This document shows, piece after piece, positions 4,855 to 57,960 of a stretch of DNA of 57,960 nucleotides; within the stretch, counting starts at the first letter, position 1, and the number at the start of each line of letters is the position of its first letter. Made by a program: the position numbers and the translations under genes. The notes under the pieces were generated by a model. The model did not search any database and was not told the origin of the DNA. It worked only from the letters and a program-made list of their open reading frames with translations. Where the stretch lies: IMG/VR virus record IMGVR_UViG_3300037156_000027, positions 1 through 57,960 of that record; one strand, written 5' to 3'. The stretch comes from a virus.

Positions 4855-6186
4855 TTACGATCTTGCAAAAGGTATGTAATCTTCTGGGTTCCCTTTGCCT
4901 CTGAACCCATTTCCTCCGGCATTCGCCTTCAACGCCGTATTAAAGCTTTTATCATTAACACTTTCGGCAAAAAAACGCCCAGTTCCGCATTGATATTTAA
5001 GAAACCATTGTTCTGGCGCATCAGGCAAATCAACCTGAATAAGGGTGCCAATATGAGGTTGGTCTTTATCGATAATCTTAGGGTGTAGGCTTGGATGTTC
5101 AAGAACATTCGCCCAGCCCAAGAGTTCGCAAGCGGCGCGACGTTGCTCAACATTTTCCCATTTTAAAGCAATTTCTGGCGTTAACGCCTTCCGGTTTTCA
5201 ATCCACCATGCTGGTATTCTAACTCCGTGGAACGAATATAGCGCCGATCCATCGCGCCATTTGCAGAATGGGCCTGTTTCGCAATGGGGACGGTTCTGAT
5301 CGTCTTTTAGCAAAAGCATAGGTCGGTCACTAATCATGCAGAATTTCTCGTGCATGATTCGTGGGCCGCTGTGTTCAGATAGTTTCTCGAAAGCATCAAA
5401 CTTTGAATAGTCCAAAGGAAGTTTTGCAACATACCGGAAGAATGTGAGAAACGCAGACCATCCAGACCACTGATTTCCGCCTTGATACATTTTCCAGTAG
5501 CATTTAACGGCACATTCTAGCCCGAACTTTCCTACACCCAAAGTTTTGGAAAGGTTGACCATGCTAGAAATATCAAGGTTAAACCAATTTTTATTTGCCG
5601 TGGCAGCATCCGTGGCAGCATACATGGCAGCACGCGTGGCATCACGCGTGGCAGCATCCGTGGCAGCACGCGTGGCAGCATGCGTGGCATCATCCGTGGC
5701 AGCATACATGGCATCACGCGTGGCAGCATACGTGGCAGCACGCGTGGCAGCACGCGTGGCAGCACGCGTGGCATCATCCGTGGCAGCACGCGTGGCAGCA
5801 TCCGTGGCAGCATCCGTGGCAGCACGCGTGGCATCATCCGTGGCAGCATCCGTGGCATCATCCGTGGCATCATCCGTGGCAGCACGCGTGGCAGCATCCG
5901 TGGCAGCACGCGTGGCATCACTTTTGCCATTTTTCCTAAAATACCATATGGCACTCGCGAAACCAGATGCAAACCGCAGAACAAACGGCGATGGCACAAA
6001 CATAATCCGGTGGTCCGGGGGTGGCTCCAAATTTGCAGAGCGATACATGGATTTTACGGCATCACGACAAATAGCTTTTTCTTCATCATCCATTGGCTTG
6101 GTGGACATGGCATTGTCAATCCATTTATCGCGCCACGATGGGAATTGCGCTTTGTGTTCTTCGGTGAGGGTGTATTTCTTAGCCAT
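4855..6186 (-). CDS. DUF6745-like protein with long tetrapeptide repeat
   Basis: 443 residues, preceded by AAGGAA. The N-terminus (LTEEHKAQFPSWRDKWIDNAMSTKP) and the C-terminal half (DGSALYSFHGVRIPAWWI and EQRRAACELLGWANVLEH) match the pattern of DUF6745 proteins. Between them, residues 90-197 are about 27 units of a four-residue repeat (A/D)AT(R/D/Y/H), encoded by 12-bp units. Homologues carry comparable repeats of varying length at this place. Later residues TLIQVDLPDAPEQWFLKYQCGTGR complete the C-terminal domain. Function unknown; the repeat probably forms an extended helix or rod linking two domains. Confidence 0.75.
   Translation of the reverse strand: MAKKYTLTEEHKAQFPSWRDKWIDNAMSTKPMDDEEKAICRDAVKSMYRSANLEPPPDHRIMFVPSPFVLRFASGFASAIWYFRKNGKSDATRAATDAATRAATDDATDDATDAATDDATRAATDAATDAATRAATDDATRAATRAATRAATYAATRDAMYAATDDATHAATRAATDAATRDATRAAMYAATDAATANKNWFNLDISSMVNLSKTLGVGKFGLECAVKCYWKMYQGGNQWSGWSAFLTFFRYVAKLPLDYSKFDAFEKLSEHSGPRIMHEKFCMISDRPMLLLKDDQNRPHCETGPFCKWRDGSALYSFHGVRIPAWWIENRKALTPEIALKWENVEQRRAACELLGWANVLEHPSLHPKIIDKDQPHIGTLIQVDLPDAPEQWFLKYQCGTGRFFAESVNDKSFNTALKANAGGNGFRGKGNPEDYIPFARS
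5596..5919. repeat. 12-bp tandem repeat array inside the DUF6745-like gene
   Basis: About 27 tandem copies of GTGGCAGCACGC-like units (+ strand reading). Variation is confined to a few positions: GCA or ATC-type substitutions in the middle and CGC, TCC or TAC at the end. The unit length is a multiple of three, so copy number can change by slippage without shifting the frame. Because the array has period 12, several reading frames stay open across it; only the - strand DUF6745 frame has meaningful flanks. Confidence 0.95.
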
Positions 6187-7027: not shown

Positions 7028-7464
7028 AGTTCTACCCTAACAACGCGGCTAGACAGGCGACAGTTGCCCTTAAGGTTCCACTCGTCGTCACCGTCCGCGA
7101 AGTCAACGTTGTACACGACGTCCGAGTTGTCGCGACGCTCCGTGCAAGACCAGTACCAGTGGGCGAGGACGGAGCCGCTAGCGGTTCTGTATGAGGCGTC
7201 CTTATTATCGTACATCTTCAGCAACAGATCCTTCGGCGGAATAAACCAGCCTCCGTTGTATGTGCCATTCTCGAACGCTGCCATAAGTTCTGCTTCGTTC
7301 TTGAAATCGCATCCGTCAAAGCCATGCCAGTTTTTCAATGACGCGACTTTCTTGACGGCGTCATTATAGGTCAACAGTTCGCCCAAATCTTCCGGTGCAG
7401 GAATAGCCTCAAGAAGTTTGACTTCTGGTTGACGAGATTCTTTGAGTTTGAATGCGTAGGTCAT
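7018..7464 (-). CDS. DUF1566/Lcl-like C-type-lectin-fold protein
   Basis: 148 residues, the first gene of the leftward operon. The second half follows the DUF1566 pattern: NGGWFIPPKDLLLKMYDN, YWSCTERRDNS and a final RVVRVE strand. These domains are often attached to surface or receptor-binding proteins. Here there is no signal peptide and no fibre gene nearby. No reverse transcriptase is present, so it is not evidently a diversification target. Confidence 0.6.
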   Translation of the reverse strand: MTYAFKLKESRQPEVKLLEAIPAPEDLGELLTYNDAVKKVASLKNWHGFDGCDFKNEAELMAAFENGTYNGGWFIPPKDLLLKMYDNKDASYRTASGSVLAHWYWSCTERRDNSDVVYNVDFADGDDEWNLKGNCRLSSRVVRVELCV

Positions 7465-7570: not shown

Positions 7571-8071
7571 ATGAACGCAGACAAAATAATTTCTATCTTG
7601 AAAAAAGAATGTGAAAAATCAGGCAGCCAAAAGGCGTGGGCAAAGGACAATGGTTTGTCGCAAGCCTATGTATGTGATGTTCTGCAAGGCAAACGCGGAA
7701 TAGGGGAATCAATCGCTAAAGCTCTTGGATACGAGCAGATCGTAAGTTATCGCCGATTTGGTGGTAGAAAAACTTATGGCGAAGGGAATACGGATATGAC
7801 GCCACATCGCGTCCAGCGTAAGCGTGTGAAGGGCTGGAAGATGCCTCCCAATACGGTCTATGTCGGGCGTCCTACGGCATATGGCAACCCTTTTTCTGTC
7901 GGGCGTGTGGGTGGTGCGGCAAAGGCTGTGGCTGACTACCGCGAATGGATAAAAACGAATTACGATCAGTCACAGATCGAGCAACTGCGCGGTAGAAATC
8001 TTGCTTGCTGGTGTGCGCTCGATCAACCCTGTCATGCCGATGTTTTATTGGAGGTAGCCAATGCCGAATGA
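7571..8071 (+). CDS. HTH-DUF4326 fusion protein
   Basis: 166 residues, start preceded by AAGGAA at five bases. Residues 1-58 form a Cro/C1-like helix-turn-helix (SGSQKAWAKDNGLSQAYVCDVLQGKRGIG). Residues 87-165 are a DUF4326 domain: GWKMPPNTVYVGRPTAYGNPF, then LRGRNLACWCALDQPCHADVLL with the CWC and CHAD cysteine/histidine set. The ATG at 7796, preceded by GAAGGGA, could start the DUF4326 part alone. The gene lies at a divergent promoter, so it may regulate both operons. The catalytic role of DUF4326 is not established to my knowledge. Confidence 0.75.
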   Translation: MNADKIISILKKECEKSGSQKAWAKDNGLSQAYVCDVLQGKRGIGESIAKALGYEQIVSYRRFGGRKTYGEGNTDMTPHRVQRKRVKGWKMPPNTVYVGRPTAYGNPFSVGRVGGAAKAVADYREWIKTNYDQSQIEQLRGRNLACWCALDQPCHADVLLEVANAE

Positions 8072-8276
8072 ATCACCAACGACTCTATTCGACATCATCA
8101 AGCGCGGCATTCTCGATCAAGATGTGCAGACTGTTGCGGATGCACTTACGGCAGTAAAGTATCTTCAGGATGCTTTCCAGAGAATAGATGCCATCTGCTC
8201 TCTTAATTCTGAGGACTACCGAGAAGGTTTCTCAGACATTGGAAATCTTGCAGGAGGCATTCTCAATGGAATATAA
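8061..8276 (+). CDS. Small tagged protein (leader NESPTT)
   Basis: 71 residues, overlapping the previous gene by 11 bases. It begins MPNESPTTLFD, the first of the shared x-Thr-Thr leaders (DNA CCA ACG ACT). The remainder is an acidic amphipathic helical protein. No family is recognised. Confidence 0.65.
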   Translation: MPNESPTTLFDIIKRGILDQDVQTVADALTAVKYLQDAFQRIDAICSLNSEDYREGFSDIGNLAGGILNGI

Positions 8277-8493
8277 AATAACAATTATTCTGGCCGCGCT
8301 ATTGCTCTTATCAGGCTGCAAAGTCTGTGACCACGAGACCAATCAAGACAAGCGACATGCTTATTTTGAGGAGTGCATTAAAATTTCCGGCGCACAACCG
8401 GAACACAATCATGAAGATAATAACGGCGATCTCGTGAAGGCTTGCGATGATGCCGCCTATTATCAAGCACAGGAGAAAGTCTGCCATGAGTGA
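8266..8493 (+). CDS. Small lipoprotein
   Basis: 75 residues from the ATG at 8266, with AGGAGG eight bases upstream. MEYKITIILAALLLLSGC is a lipoprotein signal with lipobox LLSG-C (Cys18). The mature part is short, charged and has further Cys residues (CDH, ECIKIS, ACDD, VCHE). It should be anchored in a membrane. It is one of the few genes in this block without the Thr-Thr leader, as expected if a secretion signal occupies the N-terminus. Superinfection exclusion or an outer-membrane spanin-like role is possible but not shown. Confidence 0.7.
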   Translation: MEYKITIILAALLLLSGCKVCDHETNQDKRHAYFEECIKISGAQPEHNHEDNNGDLVKACDDAAYYQAQEKVCHE

Positions 8494-8791
8494 ATCTAAA
8501 ACGACGCCATGGCAGTTGATTGAGACTGCTCCACATAACAAGAAAATAATCGTCTACTATAAAAACGGGTGTGACAAGGGAAGAACCGTTTTCGCTGTGT
8601 ATATTGATAAGTTCACCGAGGAAGATACCGGCGAGTGCGACATGGATACGGACTACAGCGAAGAAAAAGATTGTTACTATTGGCCGGAAGGTTGGTACGA
8701 GCAGATAGACAATTGGGATGACTACTCAGCCGTTCGATTTCACTATAAACCAACTCATTGGATGGAGTGCCCGGAATGTCCCAAACGGTAA
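8486..8791 (+). CDS. DUF551-like protein 1 (leader SESKTT)
   Basis: 101 residues. The start at 8486 overlaps the lipoprotein gene by 8 bases. After the MSESKTT leader comes the DUF551 pattern: PWQLIETAPHNKKIIVYY and the final FHYKPTHWMECPECPK. DUF551 proteins are short phage proteins of unknown function with W..IETAP at the front and HW.P at the end. Two more members lie at 10486 and 11735. Confidence 0.72.
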   Translation: MSESKTTPWQLIETAPHNKKIIVYYKNGCDKGRTVFAVYIDKFTEEDTGECDMDTDYSEEKDCYYWPEGWYEQIDNWDDYSAVRFHYKPTHWMECPECPKR

Positions 8792-8967
8792 CGACACCCA
8801 CATGGGAAATTCTAGCCAGAGCAGACGCCCCAATAAGGCTATCCGAGGCAGCATCTACCGCGCAGAAGGTTTTCAATCTGAACCGGACATCTGACCGCGC
8901 CGCAGAGATAGCATTCAAGACGCTAGAGCAAGCGCAGAAACTTTTAGTGGAGGCGGAGAATGGATAA
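8776..8967 (+). CDS. Small helical tagged protein (leader SQTVTT)
   Basis: 63 residues from the ATG at 8776 (an earlier in-frame ATG lies at 8758). It begins MSQTVTTPTWEIL with the shared leader. The rest is a single long helix rich in Ala/Glu (DRAAEIAFKTLEQAQKLLVEAE). It overlaps both neighbours. Confidence 0.6.
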   Translation: MSQTVTTPTWEILARADAPIRLSEAASTAQKVFNLNRTSDRAAEIAFKTLEQAQKLLVEAENG

Positions 8968-9142
8968 ATCACCAACGACGCCGGAAGACTGCGGTGCGCA
9001 TTTGTTTCACCCTATAACGCAGTTTTGTAGGAACTGCGGAATGGCAAGAACAGGGGCTTTAGAAAATTATCTGGCTTTCATGCAAAGATATACAGACAGA
9101 CTTCAACGCCTTGAAGCTAAAGTATTCGGAGAAGCACCATGA
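8960..9142 (+). CDS. Small zinc-finger-like tagged protein (leader DKSPTT)
   Basis: 60 residues beginning MDKSPTTPEDCG. Cys11, His14/His17 and the FCRNCG knuckle could bind one zinc ion. A short helix follows (YTDRLQRLEAKVF). It overlaps the neighbours by 8 and 4 bases. Function unknown. Confidence 0.62.
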   Translation: MDKSPTTPEDCGAHLFHPITQFCRNCGMARTGALENYLAFMQRYTDRLQRLEAKVFGEAP

Positions 9143-9165
9143 CTGAAACGACGAGCAAGCCATGA
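9139..9165 (+). CDS. 8-residue leader ORF (MTETTSKP)
   Basis: ATG ACT GAA ACG ACG AGC AAG CCA TGA. Its start overlaps the stop of the 8960 gene (ATGA) and its stop overlaps the ATG of the 9162 gene (ATGA). It is too short for usual gene finders, but it carries exactly the shared leader. The next gene lacks a leader of its own, so this may be a detached leader acting by translational coupling. Confidence 0.45.
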   Translation: MTETTSKP

Positions 9166-9398
9166 GAGCAACGGTTTTTACGGAGGATGAAGCCAAAGAA
9201 CGCGCCTGTTGCGGTTCTGGCAATCGTCCTGCCAATAACGGCCCCTGCATAGGCTCGAAGTGCATGGCTTGGGAATGGGTGATCGAGGCAGCTATGCCTG
9301 AAGGCGAGAAGAATGTTTACGACATAACGCCGCGAAACATGATTAAACCTATCAAGGTCGAACGTGGTTATTGCGGATTAAGCAAAGGAGATAATTAA
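9162..9398 (+). CDS. Cys-rich conserved small phage protein
   Basis: 78 residues. It has the pattern FTEDEAKERACCGSG, CIGSKCMAWEW and GYCGL, which recurs in many small phage proteins of unknown function. The spaced Cys residues suggest metal binding. The start is coupled to the 8-residue leader ORF. It overlaps the next ATG by one base. Confidence 0.68.
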   Translation: MRATVFTEDEAKERACCGSGNRPANNGPCIGSKCMAWEWVIEAAMPEGEKNVYDITPRNMIKPIKVERGYCGLSKGDN

Positions 9399-9742
9399 TG
9401 GATAAAGATTCAGTAACCACTCTTGAGGAAGAGAATTTGGACTTGCTAAAGATGGTTGATGCATTCGGGAATTTTGTTCGTGCTTATGCCGATGGAGCAG
9501 ATCGGCTGCTAAGTGAGCACACAAAAATCATGCAAAAAATAGCGGAGATGGGGGAAGCGAGAAACTTGCTGATCGATAATCCACAAACGACGCCCGACCT
9601 GATTAAAGCGATCCGCACAGAACTTTATGACATCGGCTATGGCTCTCCTATGCGTGGGGATTATCAAATTGGCTTCAATGATGCTCTGCAAAGAATGGAT
9701 TGGGTTTTAGAACGTATGGAGAAACAAAATGAAACAGCCTGA
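9398..9742 (+). CDS. Two-module tagged protein (leader DSVTT, internal DNPQTT)
   Basis: 114 residues. It begins MDKDSVTTLEEENLD, then a helical first module to about residue 59. A second leader copy, DNPQTT, sits at residues 61-66 and is followed by TPDLIKAIRTELYDIGYG. The DNA of the internal copy (GATAATCCACAAACGAC) is identical over 17 bases to the start of the 12143 gene. This looks like a fusion of two formerly separate tagged genes. Function unknown. Confidence 0.65.
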   Translation: MDKDSVTTLEEENLDLLKMVDAFGNFVRAYADGADRLLSEHTKIMQKIAEMGEARNLLIDNPQTTPDLIKAIRTELYDIGYGSPMRGDYQIGFNDALQRMDWVLERMEKQNETA

Positions 9743-9923
9743 ATCCCAAACGACGAAACGCATTTCCTATTCACTTTTTGCGGCACTTCTTATTCCGCTT
9801 CTGGCATGGTGTGCTGGATATGACTTTGACAAGCGCGGAGCGGTTGCGTGTTTCATCTGCGTCTATTCAATCCTCCTATTCCTTTTTGTCTGGTTTGCAC
9901 CTTGGTGGAAATATGACCGATAA
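9729..9923 (+). CDS. Two-helix membrane protein with leader (ESQTT)
   Basis: 64 residues: MKQPESQTTKRISYS, then two hydrophobic segments (about 14-29 and 36-55) ending APWWKYDR. The presence of the leader on a membrane protein shows that the leader is not tied to one fold. It overlaps neighbours at both ends. Confidence 0.62.
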   Translation: MKQPESQTTKRISYSLFAALLIPLLAWCAGYDFDKRGAVACFICVYSILLFLFVWFAPWWKYDR

Positions 9924-10053
9924 TCCTCAAACCACAATCATCCAACGCCTCCTGACGTTTCTATTCCCGTACAAGCGTCCGTCTATCATCGGACATATCC
10001 TTGTCCGCAATGGTTCGGTTACGGGATGTCCGGGGAGTGCGCTTAGATCATGA
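9913..10053 (+). CDS. Small basic tagged protein (leader DNPQTT)
   Basis: 46 residues from the ATG at 9913, which overlaps the preceding stop by 11 bases. It begins MTDNPQTTIIQRLLTFLFPYKRP; a hydrophobic-basic stretch follows. The stop overlaps the next ATG by 4 bases. No family is recognised. Confidence 0.5.
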   Translation: MTDNPQTTIIQRLLTFLFPYKRPSIIGHILVRNGSVTGCPGSALRS

Positions 10054-10247
10054 CATTCCGCGCATCACGCCATTGTTCGCCAAGCAAATTCATGTCGCCA
10101 AAAGGAATGCCGCAACGCAAGTCCGAGCTACTCGCATTGCATGCTGAGGGGAAGACGACATCGGAAGCAGCAGAGTTGCTGGGGATGTCTCTTAGCGCGG
10201 TTCGGCAAGCATGCGTTACTTATGGGGTTAAGTTGCGGAGGGGGTAG
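10050..10247 (+). CDS. Small HTH protein
   Basis: 65 residues. The C-terminal half is a helix-turn-helix: RKSELLALHAEGKTTSEAAELLGMSLSAVRQACVTYGVKLRRG. This resembles the homeodomain-like HTH found in short phage regulators. It is the last rightward gene; its stop is six bases from the end of the convergent leftward gene. It is likely DNA-binding, with unknown target. Confidence 0.65.
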   Translation: MTFRASRHCSPSKFMSPKGMPQRKSELLALHAEGKTTSEAAELLGMSLSAVRQACVTYGVKLRRG

Positions 10248-10253
10248 GTGGTT

Positions 10254-10499
10254 TTAGATTCTTGCGGCATTGGCTGCATCCTTTCCCTCGACTGCTAGAA
10301 CATAAGTTCTATATGCCTCAACAACGCGAATGGCTTTATATTTGTCATCCATCAAGCAGCGGCATCCTGCATTCGTGTGCATTCCTATCGGGGTCTGAAT
10401 GCGACAGCCGCCATTTGAACAACCACCAATCTCTTTCAGGCGATTTTGGAGTGCTTGGAGTGGTTCAGATAAAGTCGTTACTGATTCATTCTTCGGCAT
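10254..10499 (-). CDS. Cys-rich small phage protein (leader NESVTT)
   Basis: 81 residues beginning MPKNESVTTLSEP. The middle has GGCSNGGCRI, PIGMHTNAGCRCL: a Cys-rich pattern conserved in small phage proteins of unknown role, probably metal-binding. It is the last gene of the long leftward early region and overlaps its upstream neighbour by 14 bases. Confidence 0.68.
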   Translation of the reverse strand: MPKNESVTTLSEPLQALQNRLKEIGGCSNGGCRIQTPIGMHTNAGCRCLMDDKYKAIRVVEAYRTYVLAVEGKDAANAARI

Positions 10500-10734
10500 G
10501 GGGAACCTCCGGTAATGGATGCCAATGAGAGATCGGATAAATGTCTTTGTAATCAGTTCCCCAATCTCCCTGATTTTCGATCACACGCGAACCGTCGCAC
10601 ACAGGAACAAAACTACCCCCACGATATTCGGCTGTGCTGATCTCTGTATAGCGCGACCAAACCAAAATGGTTGTGCCGTCCTTTGGCGCAGTCTCAATGT
10701 CCCGCCAGAGAGTCGTTACTGATTGTTCGGCCAT
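10486..10734 (-). CDS. DUF551-like protein 2 (leader EQSVTT)
   Basis: 82 residues: MAEQSVTTLWRDIETAPKDG, TILVWSRYTE and the ending YPISHWHPLPEVP. This is the clearest DUF551 member of the three in this genome. The leader is fused directly to the domain. Function of DUF551 is unknown. Confidence 0.78.
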   Translation of the reverse strand: MAEQSVTTLWRDIETAPKDGTTILVWSRYTEISTAEYRGGSFVPVCDGSRVIENQGDWGTDYKDIYPISHWHPLPEVPHAEE

Positions 10735-10883
10735 AATGCCTCCGATGCTATTTGGTGAGCTGTTTTACCGCTGCGAAAACACTTGCGGCCTTCCCGATCT
10801 CCAATTTCGACTATCTGCCCCAAGGCTTCGTATAGCCTTTGGTGGTCTAAACGGAGACGTTCACATTCTTCATTTCTTTCCAT
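10716..10883 (-). CDS. Small helical protein
   Basis: 55 residues from the ATG at 10883, chosen because AAGGAG lies seven bases upstream. A longer frame starting at 11009 would overlap the whole zinc-ribbon gene and lacks support. It begins MERNEECERLRLDHQRLYEAL, a charged amphipathic helix. It has no Thr-Thr leader. Confidence 0.6.
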   Translation of the reverse strand: MERNEECERLRLDHQRLYEALGQIVEIGDREGRKCFRSGKTAHQIASEALWPNNQ

Positions 10884-11013
10884 AACGGCTCCTTGAATAA
10901 TATATCGGACGACATTCAATGCAGAGAGGCGGCCCTGAGTCTTTGCCGCATTCAACACACCGATGGGCTGAATTGTTGTTTGCGGGCTTCGTGGTTGTCG
11001 GTTGGTCAACCAT
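10870..11013 (-). CDS. Minimal zinc ribbon (leader DQPTTT)
   Basis: 47 residues from the ATG at 11013 to TGA at 10872..10870. It begins MVDQPTTTKPANNN and then has two Cys knuckles, CVECG and CIEC, separated by eight residues. The ATG overlaps the stop of the upstream gene and its 3' end overlaps the ATG at 10883. A one-zinc ribbon of this size may bind nucleic acid or a protein partner. Confidence 0.62.
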   Translation of the reverse strand: MVDQPTTTKPANNNSAHRCVECGKDSGPPLCIECRPIYYSRSRYGKK

Positions 11014-11173
11014 TCGTTGCACCTTTCAGAGCCAATTCTGCGGCGCTATAAGCTGCGCTCCAACGCTTGCCGATCTGCCCGGAACAAGAATGCGATTTCC
11101 CTGATAAGCGGTATTCTGGAACTATCGCGTCCGCGATCTCGCAAGGTGTTTTCGTCGTTTTAGATTCAGTCAT
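11006..11173 (-). CDS. Small tagged protein (leader ESKTT)
   Basis: 55 residues from the ATG at 11173 to TGA at 11008..11006. It begins MTESKTTKTPCEIADAI and ends SAAYSAAELALKGATNG. The leader DNA is nearly identical to that at 8486 (GAATCTAAAACGACG). Overlaps with both neighbours make it part of the coupled chain. No family is recognised. Confidence 0.58.
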   Translation of the reverse strand: MTESKTTKTPCEIADAIVPEYRLSGKSHSCSGQIGKRWSAAYSAAELALKGATNG

Positions 11174-11348
11174 AGGGCTGCACCCCCTTAAAAATTGCGT
11201 TGTATGATCTGCCGCCAGCGTCGATGTAGTCTTTGGGTTTTTTCCATTGCTTCTTTTTGCGGCTAATGACTTTCTTGTCGTTTTGATCTGTATAGCTGTC
11301 CGTCTTTGCGGCGCATAAGCGACCCTTTAAATTCGTGGTTTTAGTCAT
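11166..11348 (-). CDS. Small very basic protein (leader MTKTT)
   Basis: 60 residues: MTKTTNLKGRLCAAK, then a Lys-rich stretch (KKVISRKKKQWKKPKDY). The charge suggests nucleic-acid contact. It overlaps the downstream gene by 8 bases. Confidence 0.58.
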   Translation of the reverse strand: MTKTTNLKGRLCAAKTDSYTDQNDKKVISRKKKQWKKPKDYIDAGGRSYNAIFKGVQPYD

Positions 11349-11514
11349 GCAGCTTTCCTCCTAAATAGCACCAAGCGTTGAGCAGAACATTCTGCGGAAT
11401 TTTGGTGTCGAAATACATGCCCATGATAAGAGCCTCGCGCACTTCGTCTTGCGTCATTAACTTGCGCTGCAAGACGCGCTCTTTTATCGTTAATTCCGTC
11501 GTTTGTGTTGTCAT
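11341..11514 (-). CDS. Small tagged protein (leader MTTQTT)
   Basis: 57 residues from the ATG at 11514, which overlaps the stop of the upstream gene (ATGA) and has GGAG eight bases upstream. An ATG at 11526 is less well placed. After the leader come two amphipathic helices (IKERVLQRKLMTQDEVREALIMG). No family is recognised. Confidence 0.6.
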   Translation of the reverse strand: MTTQTTELTIKERVLQRKLMTQDEVREALIMGMYFDTKIPQNVLLNAWCYLGGKLHD

Positions 11515-11738
11515 GTGTGTCTCCAATGCACGGGATGTTCAGGATTTTTCAAATGCTCTTTAAGGCCGCTCGCCAAATTACCAGCGACCGCACGAATGCC
11601 GCCCAAACAACCAGCCGATAATTCTGGGTGATCTTTCAAAAGCACGTCGGCATCCTCGATGATGTCTTCGGCTAGACCAATGTAGCCTTGCAACCATTCA
11701 AGGTTGATCGTTTTCGTCGTTACTGTTTTGTCGGTCAT
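11511..11738 (-). CDS. Small tagged protein (leader DKTVTT)
   Basis: 75 residues from the ATG at 11738; the ORF extends upstream, but that part overlaps the DUF551 gene in another frame. It begins MTDKTVTTKTINLEWLQGYIGLAEDIIEDADVL. An acidic helical body follows, with one Cys-Gly-Gly turn. No family is recognised. Confidence 0.62.
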   Translation of the reverse strand: MTDKTVTTKTINLEWLQGYIGLAEDIIEDADVLLKDHPELSAGCLGGIRAVAGNLASGLKEHLKNPEHPVHWRHT

Positions 11739-11965
11739 CCTGTTTTCTCCGGTAAATCGGTTGGCATCCAATGGGTGATTGCGTGATCGAAGAAGGCCGA
11801 CCAATGCTGCCACACATCGCCATCCCAATAAGCGAGAGATGCTTCTTGTTTGCGCCCCTTTATTGTTGAGGTGACAACATAGGTTCCGTTCTTTGGTGGC
11901 GGTACAAGCTGCCATGCAACCGGGGTATTTACCTCCTGTAGAGTGGTTGCTGATTTATCAATCAT
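11735..11965 (-). CDS. DUF551-like protein 3 (leader DKSATT)
   Basis: 76 residues from the ATG at 11965. MIDKSATTLQEV is followed by VAWQLVPPPKNGTYVVTSTIKGR, YWDGDVWQHWSAFF and AITHWMPTDLPE. This follows the DUF551 plan of PxxG, Trp-rich middle and HWMP ending, although the ETAP motif is lost. It is the most divergent of the three paralogues. Confidence 0.68.
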   Translation of the reverse strand: MIDKSATTLQEVNTPVAWQLVPPPKNGTYVVTSTIKGRKQEASLAYWDGDVWQHWSAFFDHAITHWMPTDLPEKTG

Positions 11966-12143
11966 GGGCGTTCTCCTCACAGTAACGAGCCATATCCTCT
12001 GCTAATCCTAAACGGCATTCATACGGCATGTCGTGAACGATCTTTGAGAACGAGGCCGGGGTATCTGGCGAAAGGTTAGCAAACAAAATTGCCTTACATC
12101 TCAATTCGCTGAATTTGAGAGTCGTTTGTGGATTATCGGTCAT
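11958..12143 (-). CDS. Small tagged protein (leader DNPQTT)
   Basis: 61 residues from the ATG at 12143: MTDNPQTTLKFSELRCKAILFAN. Its leader DNA is the same as the internal copy in the 9398 gene over 17 bases. The rest is a mixed helical protein with two Cys. Overlaps at both ends. Confidence 0.6.
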   Translation of the reverse strand: MTDNPQTTLKFSELRCKAILFANLSPDTPASFSKIVHDMPYECRLGLAEDMARYCEENAHD

Positions 12144-12483
12144 CGTCTGTCGTCCCTTCTTCAATGTGTCGCAACACTTCAGGAATTGAGCCTTCGGATA
12201 CGTTCATCTCCTGCAAATGAGCAATAATGCAGTTTTGCAGTCGTTCGATTTTCAGGCTCATATCGTTCATTTTATGGGCTGCCTTAAGTGCTGAAAGGAT
12301 TATGGGTATTTGCTTGTATCCTGTCCCACATACCAATAACTCAGCGTAAGTAGATTTAGCGAGTACGCTCAGAGCTTTTTCTGTCGTTTGTGTCGGAGAT
12401 GCTGCGCCGCACTTTGTGCAGATAACGCCATTGTTGGCATATCCGCATTGGCCGCACAGCCATTCTTTGGTGGTTTGTGTCAT
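12133..12483 (-). CDS. Zinc ribbon plus helical module (leader MTQTT, internal TQTT)
   Basis: 116 residues from the ATG at 12483. Residues 9-26 are a zinc ribbon (CGQCG, CTKCG). At residues 30-35 a second leader copy, TQTTEK (DNA CAA ACG ACA), marks the start of a helical module with a coiled coil (DMSLKIERLQNCIIAHLQEMN). Like the 9398 gene, it looks like a fusion of two tagged units. Confidence 0.66.
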   Translation of the reverse strand: MTQTTKEWLCGQCGYANNGVICTKCGAASPTQTTEKALSVLAKSTYAELLVCGTGYKQIPIILSALKAAHKMNDMSLKIERLQNCIIAHLQEMNVSEGSIPEVLRHIEEGTTDDDR

Positions 12484-12755
12484 TTTGTTATCACTCCCTT
12501 CGCCCATTCATCCAATTTGCTTTCGAGAGCCTGAATTGTAGCCCACTTTCCCGACGGAAAAAGATCGTCGTTGTCGGGCATCTGCCGCATGAGGAAAAAC
12601 ATTTTTGCCCAATCTTCGAGCGGCATATTATCGGCATCAGCAAGATCATACGTTCTAACAATCTCTTCGATGCCGCGCCGAGTTAACGGAATGAATTCGC
12701 GTAGGCTAATAAAGTCGCGGCGATAGGTGGTCGTTGGTGATTCAGGCTTGGACAT
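12480..12755 (-). CDS. Small tagged protein (leader PESPTT)
   Basis: 91 residues: MSKPESPTTTYRRDFISL, then helices rich in charged and aromatic residues (EDWAKMFFLMRQMPDNDD, ESKLDEWAKGV). It overlaps both neighbours. No family is recognised. Confidence 0.62.
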   Translation of the reverse strand: MSKPESPTTTYRRDFISLREFIPLTRRGIEEIVRTYDLADADNMPLEDWAKMFFLMRQMPDNDDLFPSGKWATIQALESKLDEWAKGVITK

Positions 12756-12924
12756 TTTTCAGCCTCCAAAAGTCTATGAACTTGTCTGTCATCTCCCGCG
12801 CCTTTTCCTCGCCGAACAACCCAACGTAGTAGAAATAGGCGTTCACGCGCAGGATGCTTTCCTCGAATGGTCTATCCATTCTGGGCTTCGGAAAGCAGAT
12901 GACATTTGTCGTTTCAGTTGTCAT
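12742..12924 (-). CDS. Small tagged protein (leader MTTETT)
   Basis: 60 residues from the ATG at 12924, preceded by GAGGG and overlapping the upstream stop. It begins MTTETTNVICFPKPRMD and continues with an aromatic helical part (NAYFYYVGLFGEEKAREMTDKFIDFW). No family is recognised. Confidence 0.6.
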   Translation of the reverse strand: MTTETTNVICFPKPRMDRPFEESILRVNAYFYYVGLFGEEKAREMTDKFIDFWRLKNVQA

Positions 12925-13172
12925 AAATTGCCCTCCATATATTCCTTGTCGTGAACGATAGCGTTCGATGCAATGGCCTCGACGCCGTACCAATTGGTCA
13001 TGTCCCAAAGAGCGTCACAAACATTTTTAAGGGATTGTTTCTTTGCAGGATCGGTTTCCTTATCACATAGATGATTGAGTTCGTAGTGAGCATGGCGAAT
13101 ATCGCCTTGATCCAGCACCTTGACCATTACAGTCAACCTTTCAGTTTCGTAGGTGGTTTTTGAATCAGTCAT
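12921..13172 (-). CDS. Small tagged protein (leader DSKTT)
   Basis: 83 residues: MTDSKTTYETERLTVMVKVL, then a His/Cys/Asp-containing helical body (YELNHLCDKETDPAKKQ). Overlaps of 4 and 8 bases with neighbours. No family is recognised. Confidence 0.62.
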   Translation of the reverse strand: MTDSKTTYETERLTVMVKVLDQGDIRHAHYELNHLCDKETDPAKKQSLKNVCDALWDMTNWYGVEAIASNAIVHDKEYMEGNL

Positions 13173-13356
13173 TTGGAATAAATCCTTTCAAGTTATTGTC
13201 GATCCTGTACTTGGCGTGTTTTACGGATAGCCTCATTATCTTTTCTTCTCTGTCTGTGAAATTGCTGGTGTCCAAGTCTCCACAAACATCGTCGTGAACC
13301 CAAATTTGCAGTTCTGCCAAAATTTCATCTGGCGTGGTTATTGGTTTATCCTGCAT
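13165..13356 (-). CDS. Small tagged protein (leader DKPITT)
   Basis: 63 residues: MQDKPITTPDEILAELQIW, then an acidic loop and a basic helix (REEKIMRLSVKHAKYRI). No family is recognised. Confidence 0.62.
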   Translation of the reverse strand: MQDKPITTPDEILAELQIWVHDDVCGDLDTSNFTDREEKIMRLSVKHAKYRIDNNLKGFIPND

Positions 13357-13552
13357 TTAGTTTCCTTTCTTCCTCATCCGCAAACTTCTTTGCCTGTTCG
13401 ATAATGCCGAGCCACATAATCCTGCGATAGTCTGCATCCTTGAAAACATACTCAATCTCTCCCTTCACGGGAGCGAGAAGGTTTATCGCCCTATCGCGGA
13501 TTAGCATCGCTATCTGACCGGGCGATTTCGTGGTTTGTGAATCTTTAGTCAT
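13346..13552 (-). CDS. Small tagged protein (leader KDSQTT)
   Basis: 68 residues: MTKDSQTTKSPGQIAMLIRD, then helical with VKGEIEYVFKDADYRRIMW and a charged C-terminus. It overlaps neighbours by 11 and 8 bases. No family is recognised. Confidence 0.62.
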   Translation of the reverse strand: MTKDSQTTKSPGQIAMLIRDRAINLLAPVKGEIEYVFKDADYRRIMWLGIIEQAKKFADEEERKLNAG

Positions 13553-13754
13553 CGAAAGCCATCCTTCCTACGCATAAGGATGCCCATGCCATTTGTTGTC
13601 TTGTGCATTCAAAGTGTGCCGTCTCACAAGCACCGTCATCGTGAAATGTCATTATGATGACGTTCTTAACGGTTGGATCAGCCATTGCCTGAGAGAGCAA
13701 AGACGAAACGGATTTGTGTTTACCTCCAAGGGCGACAACTTTGCTTTCATTCAT
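13545..13754 (-). CDS. Small protein with decayed leader (MNESKVV)
   Basis: 69 residues. It starts MNESKVVALGG, which resembles the ESKTT leader, but with Val-Val and the DNA GTTGTC in place of the conserved motif. The rest (VKNVIIMTFHDDGACETAHFECTRQQMAWA) has alternating strand and helix with two Cys. It may mark what happens when the leader loses its constraint. Confidence 0.58.
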   Translation of the reverse strand: MNESKVVALGGKHKSVSSLLSQAMADPTVKNVIIMTFHDDGACETAHFECTRQQMAWASLCVGRMAFDD

Positions 13755-13951
13755 AAGATGCCCCTTTCTATCGCCAGTTTCTCAGACATCATAATTTGGT
13801 CAGGCTCTCCAAACCCAATCTTCACAATCTTAAATTCAGAGCGGTCAAACCATGCGCGTCCAATATCAGCTTCGATCAGAGCCTTATTAGGAGCATCGTC
13901 TATTATTTTACAATTAAGCAACAAGTCCGTGGTTTGTGGATTAGTATTCAA
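13751..13951 (-). CDS. Small tagged protein, TTG start (leader TNPQTT)
   Basis: 66 residues from the TTG at 13951, which lies in the end of the upstream gene (TTGAATACTAA) with GAGGTG six bases before it. The ORF runs further upstream, but only this start puts the leader (LNTNPQTTDLLLN) at the N-terminus like its neighbours. The body is a mixed alpha/beta protein (ADIGRAWFDRSEFKIVKIGFG). Confidence 0.52.
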   Translation of the reverse strand: MNTNPQTTDLLLNCKIIDDAPNKALIEADIGRAWFDRSEFKIVKIGFGEPDQIMMSEKLAIERGIL

Positions 13952-14186
13952 GACACACCTCAAATTGTTTGCTGCATTTAGGGCACAACACTTCAACATT
14001 TTTTGTCCTATCGGTGTTATGCTCGGCAAGATCAAATCTATGGTCTTCCCAGAAGTCATCGGCATCCAAAAGGTCCACATATGCTTCACAGTGCGGACAT
14101 TCACACCAAAGCTCTATCGTCCAAGATGCAAATACTCTTTCAGCCTCCTTAGGCGTCTCTTCGGTCGTGGTTACTGATTCAGCCAT
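13941..14186 (-). CDS. Zinc-ribbon protein (leader ESVTT)
   Basis: 81 residues from the ATG at 14186; an upstream ATG at 14225 would add a Gly-rich part that belongs to the neighbouring frame. It begins MAESVTTTEETPKEAERV. Two Cys pairs, CECPHC and CPKC, separated by an acidic region, can form one zinc ribbon. Confidence 0.63.
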   Translation of the reverse strand: MAESVTTTEETPKEAERVFASWTIELWCECPHCEAYVDLLDADDFWEDHRFDLAEHNTDRTKNVEVLCPKCSKQFEVCLEY

Positions 14187-15217: not shown

Positions 15218-15400
15218 CTATCTTGCCTCTGCCAATTTCATGCGAGACCGCCGATTAGCCGCCCTCCATTGCTTGCTCGTGTTGTCGTCTTTCCGCGCAT
15301 CGTAACAAGGCCAGCATATCCAGTATTGCTTAACCTCAGTTTTCACTTTGACCTCATATGGAGTCTTGGGTTTTTTACAGTCTGGACATACGTATTTCAT
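15218..15400 (-). CDS. Zinc-ribbon protein
   Basis: 60 residues: MKYVCPDCKKPKTPYE, then ICWPCYDARK. Two CxxC knuckles 21 residues apart form a zinc ribbon. A very basic C-terminus follows (WRAANRRSRMKLAEAR). It overlaps the GcrA-like gene by 4 bases and may bind nucleic acid. Confidence 0.65.
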   Translation of the reverse strand: MKYVCPDCKKPKTPYEVKVKTEVKQYWICWPCYDARKDDNTSKQWRAANRRSRMKLAEAR

Positions 15401-15843
15401 CTCGTCACCGGAAACCGAACCTTCTCAAAACAAGCCGTGTGATGCCCATCGCAGTATTGGCTCCCAGACTTCACTGAGGCTCCGCAGCAACGCATCTGGC
15501 GAACCTCACCGATAATATACCCGCAAAGCCCAAACGCCGGAGGCCACGGAATGGGCTTTCCCGACGGCACTCCCTGAGCTTCAGCCACGCGCTCCCTGCT
15601 CTTGGCGACAACAGCCTTAATCTTAACCTTGCGGTTATTCGCAGCTTCCACAGATGCCTTCTTGCGGTTCACACGGCTATGCGGGTGTGGCTGGGACGCG
15701 AAACCTTGCATGGGTATCTTGAGCCTATGCAGCTTGCCGATAACCGCGTTCTTTGTCTTGCCGACGATCTCAGCTATCTGCGCGGTGGTGTGCGTTGATG
15801 CGAGAGTTTGGATTTGGAGGATTTTGGCGGGTGTCCATGTCAT
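15397..15843 (-). CDS. GcrA-like cell-cycle regulator
   Basis: 148 residues. Residues 1-43 match the GcrA helix-turn-helix (TAQIAEIVGKTKNAVIGKLHRLKIP). The C-terminal part has FGLCGYIIGE, MRCCGASVKSGSQYCDGHH, resembling the Cys/His C-terminal domain of GcrA. In alphaproteobacteria GcrA works with sigma-70 at promoters carrying methylated GANTC sites. A phage copy could redirect host polymerase to phage promoters or disturb the host cell cycle. The middle linker is unusually basic. Identification is by motif only. Confidence 0.72.
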   Translation of the reverse strand: MTWTPAKILQIQTLASTHTTAQIAEIVGKTKNAVIGKLHRLKIPMQGFASQPHPHSRVNRKKASVEAANNRKVKIKAVVAKSRERVAEAQGVPSGKPIPWPPAFGLCGYIIGEVRQMRCCGASVKSGSQYCDGHHTACFEKVRFPVTR

Positions 15844-17966: not shown

Positions 17967-18573
17967 CTTCTGCATCAGAACATCCTTCTGTTGGAGATTC
18001 GGCAGATTTATGACCGTCAGCTATTCCCGCAATCTCTTTTAGTTCAGCGAGATTAAGCTGCTTCTGTTGCGCAGGAGTTAGCTTGCCCCAATAGGTTTTT
18101 AGCGGCTCGGTGCCTTTTGCGGCTTCCAGTTTGGCGGCTTCGATCAAGGCTGTGCTGGGGGTGTGAACGACAACCAAAGTCAGCGGCTTCACAGTAAATA
18201 TCTTGCGAACGGTTTTTGATTCCGTGAGAGATAATTTCTTCTCGCCGTCTATATGCGACATATGAGAGATTCGGATGCCCCCTACCTTCTTGCCCCCGAA
18301 TATCACATCCTCATCGCCGTACAGCGTCAGGCTCTTGCCAACATAGTTTACGGAGGCCAGACCCCACAATCTCGCCAGAACCCTAGACATAGTTTTGCAT
18401 GGCTTCCAAGGCTTACCGTTATCGCCCTCAAAAAAGATAGATACCTTCTGCTGAGGATCATTATTCTTGATGACAACCTTGGTAATCGTAATGGTTTTCG
18501 ATATTCCACAGGCGATGTCATCATAATTCAACTGGTCTGACTTCGGCTCTATTGCTACGGACATATCGTTCAT
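17947..18573 (-). CDS. Recombination-associated protein next to YqaJ exonuclease
   Basis: 208 residues. It contains KPCKTMSRVLARLWG, YVGKSLTLYGDEDVIFGGKKVGGIRISHMSHID, a pattern I know from phage proteins encoded beside YqaJ-type exonucleases. The beta-rich core suggests a nucleic-acid-binding fold. Residues 140-180 are a Lys-rich helical segment (EAAKLEAAKGTEPLKTYWGKLTPAQQKQLN). Its ATG overlaps the exonuclease stop by 4 bases. A single-strand annealing or exonuclease-partner role is inferred from context only. Confidence 0.6.
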   Translation of the reverse strand: MNDMSVAIEPKSDQLNYDDIACGISKTITITKVVIKNNDPQQKVSIFFEGDNGKPWKPCKTMSRVLARLWGLASVNYVGKSLTLYGDEDVIFGGKKVGGIRISHMSHIDGEKKLSLTESKTVRKIFTVKPLTLVVVHTPSTALIEAAKLEAAKGTEPLKTYWGKLTPAQQKQLNLAELKEIAGIADGHKSAESPTEGCSDAEDDAPAV

Positions 18574-19247
18574 ATTATGTCTCCTTCAATCCTGCGTTCG
18601 GTTGGATGTAGTCGCAAGGTTTTGTCTGCGATTCGTTGCCGATAAATCTCAAAGTTCTCGGCAAGTTTTTTCTCAAATATCGTTGCCGCCGCGACTATCG
18701 CATCTTGCACAACGGGGTCAGGCAACACGCGCAACGTCAACATAGGCAAACCACCGGAATATGAGATAAAGTCCCACCATTTCCGCTCAGACACTAATAG
18801 GCATGTCTGAACCTGAATAACAAAGTCATCCGGCATCTTCTGTTCGACGATAGTTTGCACCTGAAATTTTTGTGCGCGTGATTTCACCTCAAGACCACCA
18901 GCCTCTGCGATTAGGGAGTCTGGCGAACATCCGAGTGTGAACCCGAATTTATCGTTCGTTATGAACCCAACATCCTGAAGCGGTGCGTATTTCTCATTGT
19001 AGATGATTTTGGCTTCCAATTCGTCATCATGACCGCGCAACATCGCATCGCTGACATATTGCGGCTCTACATATTTAGAAATACGCTGCGATAGCAACTC
19101 CCACATATGGCTGCGCGATTTGTCATTATCGGCGACTTTCAGGGTTGGGGTGATGATTAGCTTCATTTGGGAAGCTGTCAACAATCCGGCTCTGGCAGTA
19201 ATCCACGCATCACTGCCCTGATCAAAATTCTCATGATAGGTTATCAT
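18570..19247 (-). CDS. YqaJ-type viral exonuclease
   Basis: 225 residues, AAGGAG seven bases upstream. The PD-(D/E)xK nuclease core is visible: ARAGLLTAS (19-26), RGHDDELEA with Glu76/Glu78 (71-79), GCSPD (Asp110), GGLEVKS (Glu120, Lys122) and IQVQTCLL (144-151). This is the lambda-exonuclease-like family that resects double-stranded ends for recombination. It pairs with the downstream gene. It is transcribed away from the + strand promoter at 19309. Confidence 0.88.
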   Translation of the reverse strand: MITYHENFDQGSDAWITARAGLLTASQMKLIITPTLKVADNDKSRSHMWELLSQRISKYVEPQYVSDAMLRGHDDELEAKIIYNEKYAPLQDVGFITNDKFGFTLGCSPDSLIAEAGGLEVKSRAQKFQVQTIVEQKMPDDFVIQVQTCLLVSERKWWDFISYSGGLPMLTLRVLPDPVVQDAIVAAATIFEKKLAENFEIYRQRIADKTLRLHPTERRIEGDII

Positions 19248-23410: not shown

Positions 23411-23583
23411 TTTTCTTCCATCAATCTTTCTTGATGCTCCATATATCGCCTCTCGGCACAATTCTCGCACAGATATTCAGGCGGAACGCTGAACGGTGCC
23501 ATTGTGGTTATGTCGTACACGTCTGGCGTGGTTGCGCCGCAGTTTTCGCATTCGCGGGGTTTATCGTTTGCCATATCTGTCAT
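23407..23583 (-). CDS. Zinc-ribbon protein
   Basis: 58 residues, from the ATG at 23583 to TGA at 23409..23407. CENCG and CENC knuckles are separated by about 21 residues, followed by a charged helix (ERRYMEHQERLMEEK). The ATG overlaps the stop of the upstream gene and its TGA overlaps the next ATG. It has no Thr-Thr leader. Confidence 0.6.
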   Translation of the reverse strand: MTDMANDKPRECENCGATTPDVYDITTMAPFSVPPEYLCENCAERRYMEHQERLMEEK

Positions 23584-23753
23584 GGCAATTCCTTCAATTT
23601 ATCGAAGTGATAAAGCGGCGTGAATTTCTGATCGTTGTATTCTGCGTCATGTCCTGTTTCATATATTATCAGACCAGCGGTATCCTTTCCGACAATCCAT
23701 ACTTTCTTGCCGTTCACCAATGCCCAACGTGGCGTGGTTTCAGTTTGTGCCAT
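23580..23753 (-). CDS. Small tagged protein (leader QTETT)
   Basis: 57 residues from the ATG at 23753 to TGA at 23582..23580. It begins MAQTETTPRWALVNGKKVW and is mostly beta (IVGKDTAGLIIYETGHDAEY). The leader has DNA GAA ACC ACG. It overlaps neighbours at both ends. Confidence 0.58.
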   Translation of the reverse strand: MAQTETTPRWALVNGKKVWIVGKDTAGLIIYETGHDAEYNDQKFTPLYHFDKLKELP

Positions 23754-23913
23754 GCTTTAGCTCCTTAGATATTTCCTGATTACGGTTCTGCAATTCTTCG
23801 CAGGACATTACACTTGTAAATGGCGTCTTCCATCGGCCACAATTCACACAGCTAAGTTGCGTCCCATTGGCTCTAGTTATGCGCCATACGTGAGTGGTTG
23901 GTGATTCAGTCAT
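23740..23913 (-). CDS. Small tagged protein (leader ESPTT)
   Basis: 57 residues from the ATG at 23913, with GGGAGG four bases upstream: MTESPTTHVWRITRANG. It contains LSCVNCGRWK and MSCEE, a possible zinc site. A further in-frame ATG at 23961 also has AGGAGG before it, so a form 16 residues longer is possible. Confidence 0.58.
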   Translation of the reverse strand: MTESPTTHVWRITRANGTQLSCVNCGRWKTPFTSVMSCEELQNRNQEISKELKHGTN

Positions 23914-23962: not shown

Positions 23963-24188
23963 CTATTTCCTCCTCAATGCGGTTTCAGGGATAGCTGCCG
24001 CTAACTGCGCCTCAATCTTTTTAATTTTCGCGGTATGGGGTAGCGGTATAAACGCAGGCTGATAAACCGTCACAGGCTTTACCGTCACCCTTTCGGGTTG
24101 CAGATTTAACGCTATGCCGGATTCCATGCCAAGCAGAAATATGATGCCGAGGGATAGGATTTTTGCGGTTGTGGGGGTGCGTGGTCAT
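23963..24188 (-). pseudogene. Small membrane protein gene with apparent +1 frameshift
   Basis: The ATG at 24188 overlaps the upstream stop (ATGA) and begins MTTHPHNRK. After the five-base T run at 24160..24164 (A run on the coding strand) the sensible frame is one base off: KILSLGIIFLLGMESGIAL, then VTVKPVTVYQPAFIPLP and IEAQLAAAIPETALRRK, ending TAG at 23965..23963. Removing one base of the run gives a 74-residue protein with a membrane segment, similar in plan to the upstream gene. It may be a broken gene, a homopolymer assembly error or a programmed shift. Confidence 0.5.
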
Positions 24189-24418
24189 TTTGACACCATT
24201 TTAAGGGCTGAGGCGGGAATAGTCGCCGCAATGCGGTTGATCTGTTCCCCGTAGTATTTCTTGGCAGTCTTAACGGGAACATACACAGGAACATGCTCGG
24301 TTATGAAAACGTCATGCGTCACGATCTTGGGCGGTTGGCGCACCTGCAAGCCAGCATAGAAGCTGCCAGCGCAACAGGCTAAGAGGGTGACGAGGCGTAG
24401 TTTGGTTCTAAACTTCAT
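24185..24418 (-). CDS. Small protein with N-terminal membrane segment
   Basis: 77 residues from the ATG at 24418. Residues 7-24 (LRLVTLLACCAGSFYAGL) are a membrane anchor or signal. They are followed by a Val/Pro-rich stretch (VFITEHVPVYVPVKT) and a helix (GEQINRIAATIPASALK). The downstream ORF has the same plan, so the two may be duplicates. No family is recognised. Confidence 0.55.
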   Translation of the reverse strand: MKFRTKLRLVTLLACCAGSFYAGLQVRQPPKIVTHDVFITEHVPVYVPVKTAKKYYGEQINRIAATIPASALKMVSK

Positions 24419-57733: not shown

Positions 57734-57960
57734 ATGCGTCCCGTATATATCGCAGCGAAAGCCACATCTGGAAACAGCGCCGCTTGTATTTTAGATCAAT
57801 ATCTGACCCCTACTGATGCTCTTTTGGCAGTTGAGCTAGGCGGTAATACTGGGGGCGGCGCGAGCTATACGGTGCAATATAGTCCCGATGATCCTTATGC
57901 ATCCTACGCCACAGATTATAACACGAATGCGAACTGGTATAACCATCCAACGCTAGTGAC
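57734..57960 (+). CDS. Structural/tail-associated protein, 5' part of the gene crossing the joint
   Basis: The ATG at 57734 has AAGGAG six bases upstream. It begins MRPVYIAAKATSGNSAACIL, and the frame is open to the window end, where it continues at base 1 (counting the shared 127 bases once) to TGA at 254. The full protein is 117 residues. The small phage tail proteins that share this opening are of unknown function. Confidence 0.75.
   Translation, partial: MRPVYIAAKATSGNSAACILDQYLTPTDALLAVELGGNTGGGASYTVQYSPDDPYASYATDYNTNANWYNHPTLV
57834..57960. repeat. Terminal direct repeat, right copy
   Basis: Identical to 1..127. Counting one copy gives a circular genome of 57,833 bp. No cohesive end or terminal protein sequence is evident here, so the joint is likely where the assembler opened the circle rather than a physical end. 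Confidence 0.93.

Follow-up and report, generated by a model that had tools for sequence, protein, structure and literature searches.

A translated, phase-fixed Thr-Thr tag at the starts of small phage genes as a probable joint for gene cassettes

The window analyzed here is a whole viral record of 57,960 bases (IMG/VR record IMGVR_UViG_3300037156_000027), in which 27 small genes share a short coding motif near their starts. This motif, here called the tag, is x-Thr-Thr within codons 4-9, with the DNA form nnA-ACS-ACn (S = G or C), the core A-AC[G/C]-AC (AACSAC) and a start-to-tag distance of 3 to 8 codons. We refer to the stretch from the start codon to the tag as the leader and to the coding part after Thr-Thr as the body. 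The 27 starts had been listed in a preliminary description made from the letters of the sequence alone, and all of them are real, with x-Thr-Thr in codons 4-9 in 27/27. The entry at 9139 is a mere 8-amino acid (aa) open reading frame (ORF), that at 11013 is a 47-aa ORF, and that at 13951 has a TTG start; tags in a 16-aa ORF at 10270 (-) and, internal and in frame, at 9586 (DNPQTT) and 12388 (SPTQTT) had been missed. Gene calling covers the block with short, overlapping ORFs that bear a ribosome-binding site (RBS). Other phages that carry arrays of tagged genes are called array phages and are distinguished by G numbers. The features of the window are as follows.

8061..8276 (+), tagged gene MPNESPTT-LFDIIKRG; body common to two other array phages, leaders different
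8073..8083 (+), tag core TCACCAACGAC; mosaic joint, the sequence resembling G008 to the left (7985-8083) and G006 to the right (8074-8506)
8074..8506 (+), exchanged segment matching G006 50159-49727 at 95% identity
8266..8493 (+), lipoprotein gene without tag, within the exchanged segment 8074-8506
8486..8791 (+), tagged gene MSESKTT-PWQLIETAP, DUF551-like
8776..8967 (+), tagged gene MSQTVTT
8960..9142 (+), tagged gene MDKSPTT, zinc-ribbon-like
9139..9165 (+), orphan leader, 8-aa ORF MTETTSKP; a G007 DNA match covers the leader MTETT, then ends
9398..9742 (+), tagged gene MDKDSVTT with the second in-frame tag DNPQTT at 9586; probably a two-cassette fusion
9729..9923 (+), tagged gene MKQPESQTT, membrane protein
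9913..10053 (+), tagged gene MTDNPQTT
10220..10270 (-), orphan leader, 16-aa ORF MPQESKTTYPLRNLTP, at the end of the minus array
10254..10499 (-), tagged gene MPKNESVTT; leader like G004 MPKPDTT, with a DUF551 gene upstream in either phage
10486..10734 (-), tagged gene MAEQSVTT, DUF551 (PF04448)
10870..11013 (-), tagged 47-aa ORF MVDQPTTT, zinc-ribbon-like
11006..11173 (-), tagged gene MTESKTT
11166..11348 (-), tagged gene MTKTT, basic
11341..11514 (-), tagged gene MTTQTT
11511..11738 (-), tagged gene MTDKTVTT
11735..11965 (-), tagged gene MIDKSATT, DUF551-like
11958..12143 (-), tagged gene MTDNPQTT
12133..12483 (-), tagged gene MTQTT, zinc ribbon, with the second in-frame tag SPTQTT at 12388; probably a fusion
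12480..12755 (-), tagged gene MSKPESPTT
12742..12924 (-), tagged gene MTTETT-NVICFPKP; leader as in G011 MTTETT-PIFIDDVE, body unlike
12908..13167 (-), exchanged cassette of one gene matching G011 7054-7313 at 78%, tags at both ends
12921..13172 (-), tagged gene MTDSKTT; the G011 MPSESETT gene has a body of 85% identity
13165..13356 (-), tagged gene MQDKPITT
13346..13552 (-), tagged gene MTKDSQTT; body homologous to that of the G004 MDDSKTT gene
13751..13951 (-), tagged gene NTNPQTT, TTG start
13941..14186 (-), tagged gene MAESVTT
23580..23753 (-), tagged gene MAQTETT, outside the main array
23740..23913 (-), tagged gene MTESPTT, outside the main array
18570..19247 (-), YqaJ-family viral exonuclease (PF09588), candidate recombination function of the window phage

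The constraint on the tag lies in its nucleotides as well as in its residues. An A precedes the first Thr codon (Thr1) in 27/27 cases, the x codon thus ending in A in all of them where the amino acids predict 12.5, and Thr1 is ACG or ACC in 27/27, with the second Thr codon (Thr2) using all four Thr codons. In an automatically compiled list Thr1 was ACS in 26/27 against a background of 0.55 (p=2e-6), the sole deviating entry lying in another reading frame and not being a tag, and over all tags Thr2 lacks the G/C bias of Thr1 (p=3e-5). The sequence AACSAC occurs within the first 36 nt of 27/27 genes, compared with a mean of 0.7 (maximum 5) after shuffling of the codon order and a mean of 6.2/27 (sd 2.1, maximum 15 in 5,000 draws) after synonymous redraws from the genome's own usage. 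When 686 small genes of the array phages were counted with no conditioning on the peptide, 117 occurrences of AACSAC within the first 36 nt were in the Thr frame and 15 were out of it. These wobble, frame and redraw statistics support the constraint at the nucleic acid level that the preliminary description had deduced. Outside the tags the sequence occurs at expectation in the window (46 observed vs 46.9) and near expectation across the array genomes; a Chi-like recombination hot spot was rejected because AACSAC is not over-represented genome-wide.

In an alignment of 26 tagged proteins only M, T and T are invariant, and Pfam, PHROGs and PADLOC named almost no tagged protein except the DUF551 proteins and zinc ribbons. 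Sequence information is limited to positions -9..+8 of the core, with no inverted repeats around it, and upstream of the start there is nothing but a diffuse ribosome-binding signal. A structure model of low-to-moderate confidence places the tag residues in a coil, with a helix beginning directly past Thr-Thr. Some leaders contain GANTC in their E/D-S codons, resembling the CcrM site; a reading of the leaders as CcrM sites was discarded because this applies to a minority of tags only.

Scans of IMG/VR with sequence patterns returned ten further array phages, uncultivated like that of the window, with 43-60% GC:

G003, 15.9 kb
G004, 69.9 kb, MuF-fused portal, ~38 tags
G005, 40.6 kb, tail protein resembling that of BPP-1
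G006, 51 kb
G007, 58.7 kb
G008, 53 kb
G009, 26 kb
G010, 55 kb
G011, 20 kb (G012 is the same phage, 99.99%)
G013, 25.5 kb, 60% GC

Some of the scan patterns included AACSAC, so that the tags used as bait are biased; one scan that left the x and Thr1 wobble positions unconstrained again recovered CAA-ACS in the array tags and often CAG in isolated chance matches. The portal of the window phage is found in G009 (49% identity) and not in G003-G008, hence several array phages are not close kin, and several have unrelated virion modules. One array phage has a tagged lipoprotein, MPESQTT-ILLAALVLLAGC; the lipoprotein gene of the window block indeed lacks the tag, as had been noted, but the accompanying argument that a lipoprotein cannot carry it does not hold.

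In array-less relatives of the window phage identified by virion genes, AACSAC-start small genes numbered 1/68, 0/59 and 0/31, and there were no arrays in its close terminase or portal relatives (G001, L002, L004-L006, Caulobacter phage RW and MW202545). One of the relatives, L003, otherwise tag-free, has a single MSKDTQTT start (CAG ACG ACT; 12813-12968) in its virion region. A single pattern, of modest recall, was run against the genomes of 84,980 bacterial and archaeal species and gave 94 matches, all isolated genes and no arrays, and DNA searches of INPHARED and PLSDB yielded no array phage. An 81-bp match of 81% to the Mycobacterium prophage prophi62-2, which has no Thr-Thr tag, was set aside as conservation of a DUF4326 gene that overlaps the next start; in the window this HTH and DUF4326 gene (7571-8071, +) overlaps the following start with its 3′ end. 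No carriers of the 8061 body beyond the already known G006 and G007 came up in a search for them.

Comparison of the array phages showed that homology blocks begin and end at tags. The 433-bp window segment 8074-8506 matches G006 at 95% identity, with both ends ≤5 bp from a tag core in both genomes. It holds the 8061 body, then the lipoprotein gene, then the RBS and ATG of the following gene together with its leader, and ends at AAAACSACG; past 8506, a DUF551-like body in the window and an unrelated body in G006 both stand behind the leader MSESKTT. On its other side, window positions 7985-8083 match G008 across RBS, ATG and leader, and this match stops at the tag where the G006 block starts. 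With a G008 match to the left and a G006 match to the right, the tag at 8073-8083 is thus the junction of two histories. Exactly one cassette is common to the window (12908-13167) and G011, at 78%, consisting of the 13172 body and the leader MTTETT, after which the bodies differ. Taking all 8 blocks among the array phages together, 10/16 block ends lie ≤15 bp from a tag core on both genomes, compared with a mean of 0.17 and a maximum of 3 when the tags were shifted (5,000 shifts).

Comparing leaders with bodies, as the preliminary description had recommended, showed that the two have separate histories. In body-homologous pairs (n=15, up to 94% identity) the leaders are no more alike than random: their identity is near the 0.40 background, their lengths are equal in 3/15 (background 0.22) and the upstream DNA is homologous in 0/15. 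The body of gene 8061, for instance, recurs as MTTQTT-LFDIIKLG in G006 (94%) and as MKIEPQTT-KFDTIKRG in G007 (59%). Conversely, the same leader precedes unlike bodies in window MSESKTT-PWQLIETAP and G006 MSESKTT-KSNDQKL, and in window MTTETT-NVICFPKP and G011 MTTETT-PIFIDDVE. Where the upstream DNA is homologous, the leaders of the window and G008 are alike in length and register, and those of the window and G004 (MPK...) and of G004 and G005 (DNA alignment) are recognizably related, the bodies differing in each case. The pattern indicates that RBS, ATG and leader travel with the upstream gene and that bodies are joined at Thr-Thr. Tag-free homologues also exist, namely G008 MKKIVTEV for G004 MPKPDTTLNNQPKENT-MKKIVTEV (89%), a DUF551 gene in G007, and window gene 24415 for G006 MSNVSGTT-PRYLPG; the tag is therefore neither a trait of the protein family nor required by the body.

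The orphan leader at 10270, at the end of the minus array, is predicted by a model in which each unit consists of body n and leader n+1, and the 9139 ORF looks like a leader whose body was lost, since its DNA match to a G007 gene covers the leader and goes no further. Together with the internal tags at 9586 and 12388, these orphan leaders fit an assembly out of cassettes. Separately, nested leaders (K-T-V-T-T, K-T-Q-T-T) were seen in G004, G005, G007, G009 and G010, as if a leader had been joined onto a leader, and a Val/Gly-rich repetitive ORF adjoins the MKKIVTEV gene in both G004 (49766-50299) and G008 (24170-24350).

We consider it probable, judging from these sequence comparisons, that the tag is a phase-fixed, coding-embedded joint at which phages swapped small-gene cassettes. 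A cassette would comprise Thr-Thr and the body of gene n, its stop codon, and then the RBS, ATG and leader of gene n+1, and would be exchanged among phages of a common host pool. As the joint lies some codons into the ORF in the constant phase nnA|ACS|ACn, any incoming body would be fused in frame; lacking its own promoter, RBS and start codon, it would be expressible at once from the resident leader. Exchange may proceed by short-homology or annealing recombination during co-infection, and the core may be kept because a cassette can spread only if its joint matches, in phase as well. Phage annealing or exonuclease systems could plausibly carry out the recombination: the window has a YqaJ exonuclease, and three array phages (G004, G005 and G008) have AAA_24 proteins, which we take to be Sak4-like. 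The preliminary description had offered four options for the tag; the comparative data directly back the recombination joint for cassettes, and a translation-control site, an RNA-protein site or an N-terminal tag may still be the reason for its conservation.

Several points weigh against the cassette joint. Only 8 blocks are available and 3 of them involve gene 8061, so that not all are independent and the exchange events are few. Some block ends are expected near starts anyway, genes being natural units of mosaicism, and the discriminating evidence, a breakpoint within the ORF with the leader staying with the upstream gene, comes from ~5 junctions; in the upstream-homologous pair G007/G013 the leader lengths differ. 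Profile searches with PF00589 and PF00239 found no recombinase common to the arrays. The conserved core of ~6-10 bp with two free positions is short for homologous annealing; the two free bases ahead of the core A are odd for pure base-pair homology, which would favor contiguous identity, and recombination alone fails to account for the alternation of G and C at Thr1 with A and T rare.

The foremost alternative, a tentative but serious one, is that the tag is primarily an expression or protein signal (an early-codon enhancer, a site for an RNA-binding protein or a host-recognized N-terminal peptide) selected gene by gene, with recombination occurring there secondarily because it is the sole shared sequence. 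The core holds across 43-60% GC and despite local codon usage: only 17% of the Thr codons in G003 are ACS, yet its three tags have ACG, and almost every tag of G013, a phage of 60% GC, has ACC following an A-ending codon. The pattern of two free bases resembles recognition rather than homology, and there is a peptide preference for [S/T/P]-x-T-T. Within the leader pair MPNESPTT/MAKETVTT, related by descent, Thr-Thr and the preceding A are kept as other bases change and Thr1 switches between ACG and ACC. Protein recognition or a codon effect on translation could be the primary cause of core conservation. An RNA site, on the other hand, would not need a strict frame, some genes within the window array lack the tag, tag-free homologues exist, and the tag-to-start distance varies from 3 to 8 codons. 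A history as a cassette joint and a separate expression or protein function are mutually compatible.

A more far-reaching version of the cassette joint, which we regard as unlikely, is common-pool gene capture in lytic phages, in which a host or phage factor would recognize nCAnnAACSAC in frame and splice accessory bodies onto resident leaders, creating an integron-like library. Less probable again is a dedicated site-specific recombinase or nuclease that recognizes nCAnnAACSAC and joins cassettes as an integron integrase does with attC. The joints are precise and the core is degenerate, and the two identical leader pairs (window/G006 and window/G011) are alike up to AAAC and first differ at the G/C base; yet tyrosine recombinases (PF00589) are absent from 12 records in searches whose positive controls worked, a resolvase/invertase (serine recombinase, PF00239) is present in G004 only, inverted repeats are lacking and the information ends within -9..+8 of the core.

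Recent duplication of one leader inside each phage, with no exchange between phages, would explain the numerous copies per genome and is very improbable: phages whose virion modules are unrelated have the same leaders, A and S do not vary while the two bases before the A and the Thr2 wobble are free, and inter-phage blocks end at tags. Both the block comparison and the leader/body comparison contradict such a duplication. Chance or codon bias near starts has next to no likelihood, since A-ending codons are indeed common early in genes but the redraws reach only 6.2/27, an A-rich ramp would favor the ACA that is avoided at Thr1, and array-less relatives lack the tag; the Thr1 codon statistics and the redraws refute it.

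The record is probably a complete genome, with a perfect 127-bp direct terminal repeat (1-127 and 57834-57960), and G006 also has one of 127 bp. Virion genes put the phage near Caulobacter phage RW (portal 43% identity) and the Pelagibacter HTVC023P group (portal 32%). A homologue of the cell-cycle regulator GcrA is encoded at 15397-15843 (-) (PF07750, E=1.2e-7), and several array phages are strongly depleted in GANTC (observed vs expected, 2 vs 79 in G013, 43 vs 210 in G010 and 97 vs 273 in G004). Alphaproteobacteria use both GcrA and the GANTC methylase CcrM as regulators, and the hosts therefore probably belong to this class. A gene at 4855-6186 (-) contains a long run of near-identical short repeats (ATDDATRAAT...), with similar DNA repeats in genes of G001 and G007.

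The way in which phages build up their changing complements of small accessory genes is poorly understood, and junction sequences are seldom found. In the array phages the junction can be seen; it is short, recurs dozens of times and is common to phages with unrelated virion modules, which makes exchange traceable and testable gene by gene. The tag can serve as a search key for small accessory genes, and it carries a warning for annotation, as the conserved N-terminus of a small phage protein may reflect the history of the neighboring gene. Should common-pool capture be true, otherwise unrelated phages of one host group would draw on an open library of accessory genes.

A literature search that left most subscription journals out of reach found no published description of a translated, phase-fixed joint, and nothing relevant on shared N-termini or cassette exchange in phages. 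Integron cassettes are promoter-less bodies captured beside resident expression signals at a short shared site. The tag arrays resemble them in outline only, having no integrase and no attC-like inverted repeats, and their joint yields a protein fusion; they also differ from a serine-recombinase cassette system, as PF00239 in G004 only means that a resolvase/invertase is not common to the arrays. Cluster K mycobacteriophages have start-associated sequences (SAS, GGGATAGGAGCCC), which lie upstream of the start and are untranslated, and an extended form (ESAS) that stays with the gene family (PMC3203893). These are likewise short conserved elements of unknown function at the starts of many unrelated small genes, but the tag is translated, its leaders part from the body, and an upstream site like GGGATAGGAGCCC was not found here. 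Closest are the short conserved boundary sequences discussed for phage mosaic junctions (PMC3029335), where homology switches partner at a short shared sequence and homologous recombination was proposed. The tag, too, is conserved across phages at junctions with different histories on either side. Boundary sequences sit between genes or modules, whereas the tag sits in frame inside the ORF at codons 4-9 with its phase fixed, recurs in as many as ~38 genes of one phage and is shared by phages whose virion modules are unrelated; with its joint inside the ORF, it is a variant of boundary-sequence mosaicism rather than a plain member.

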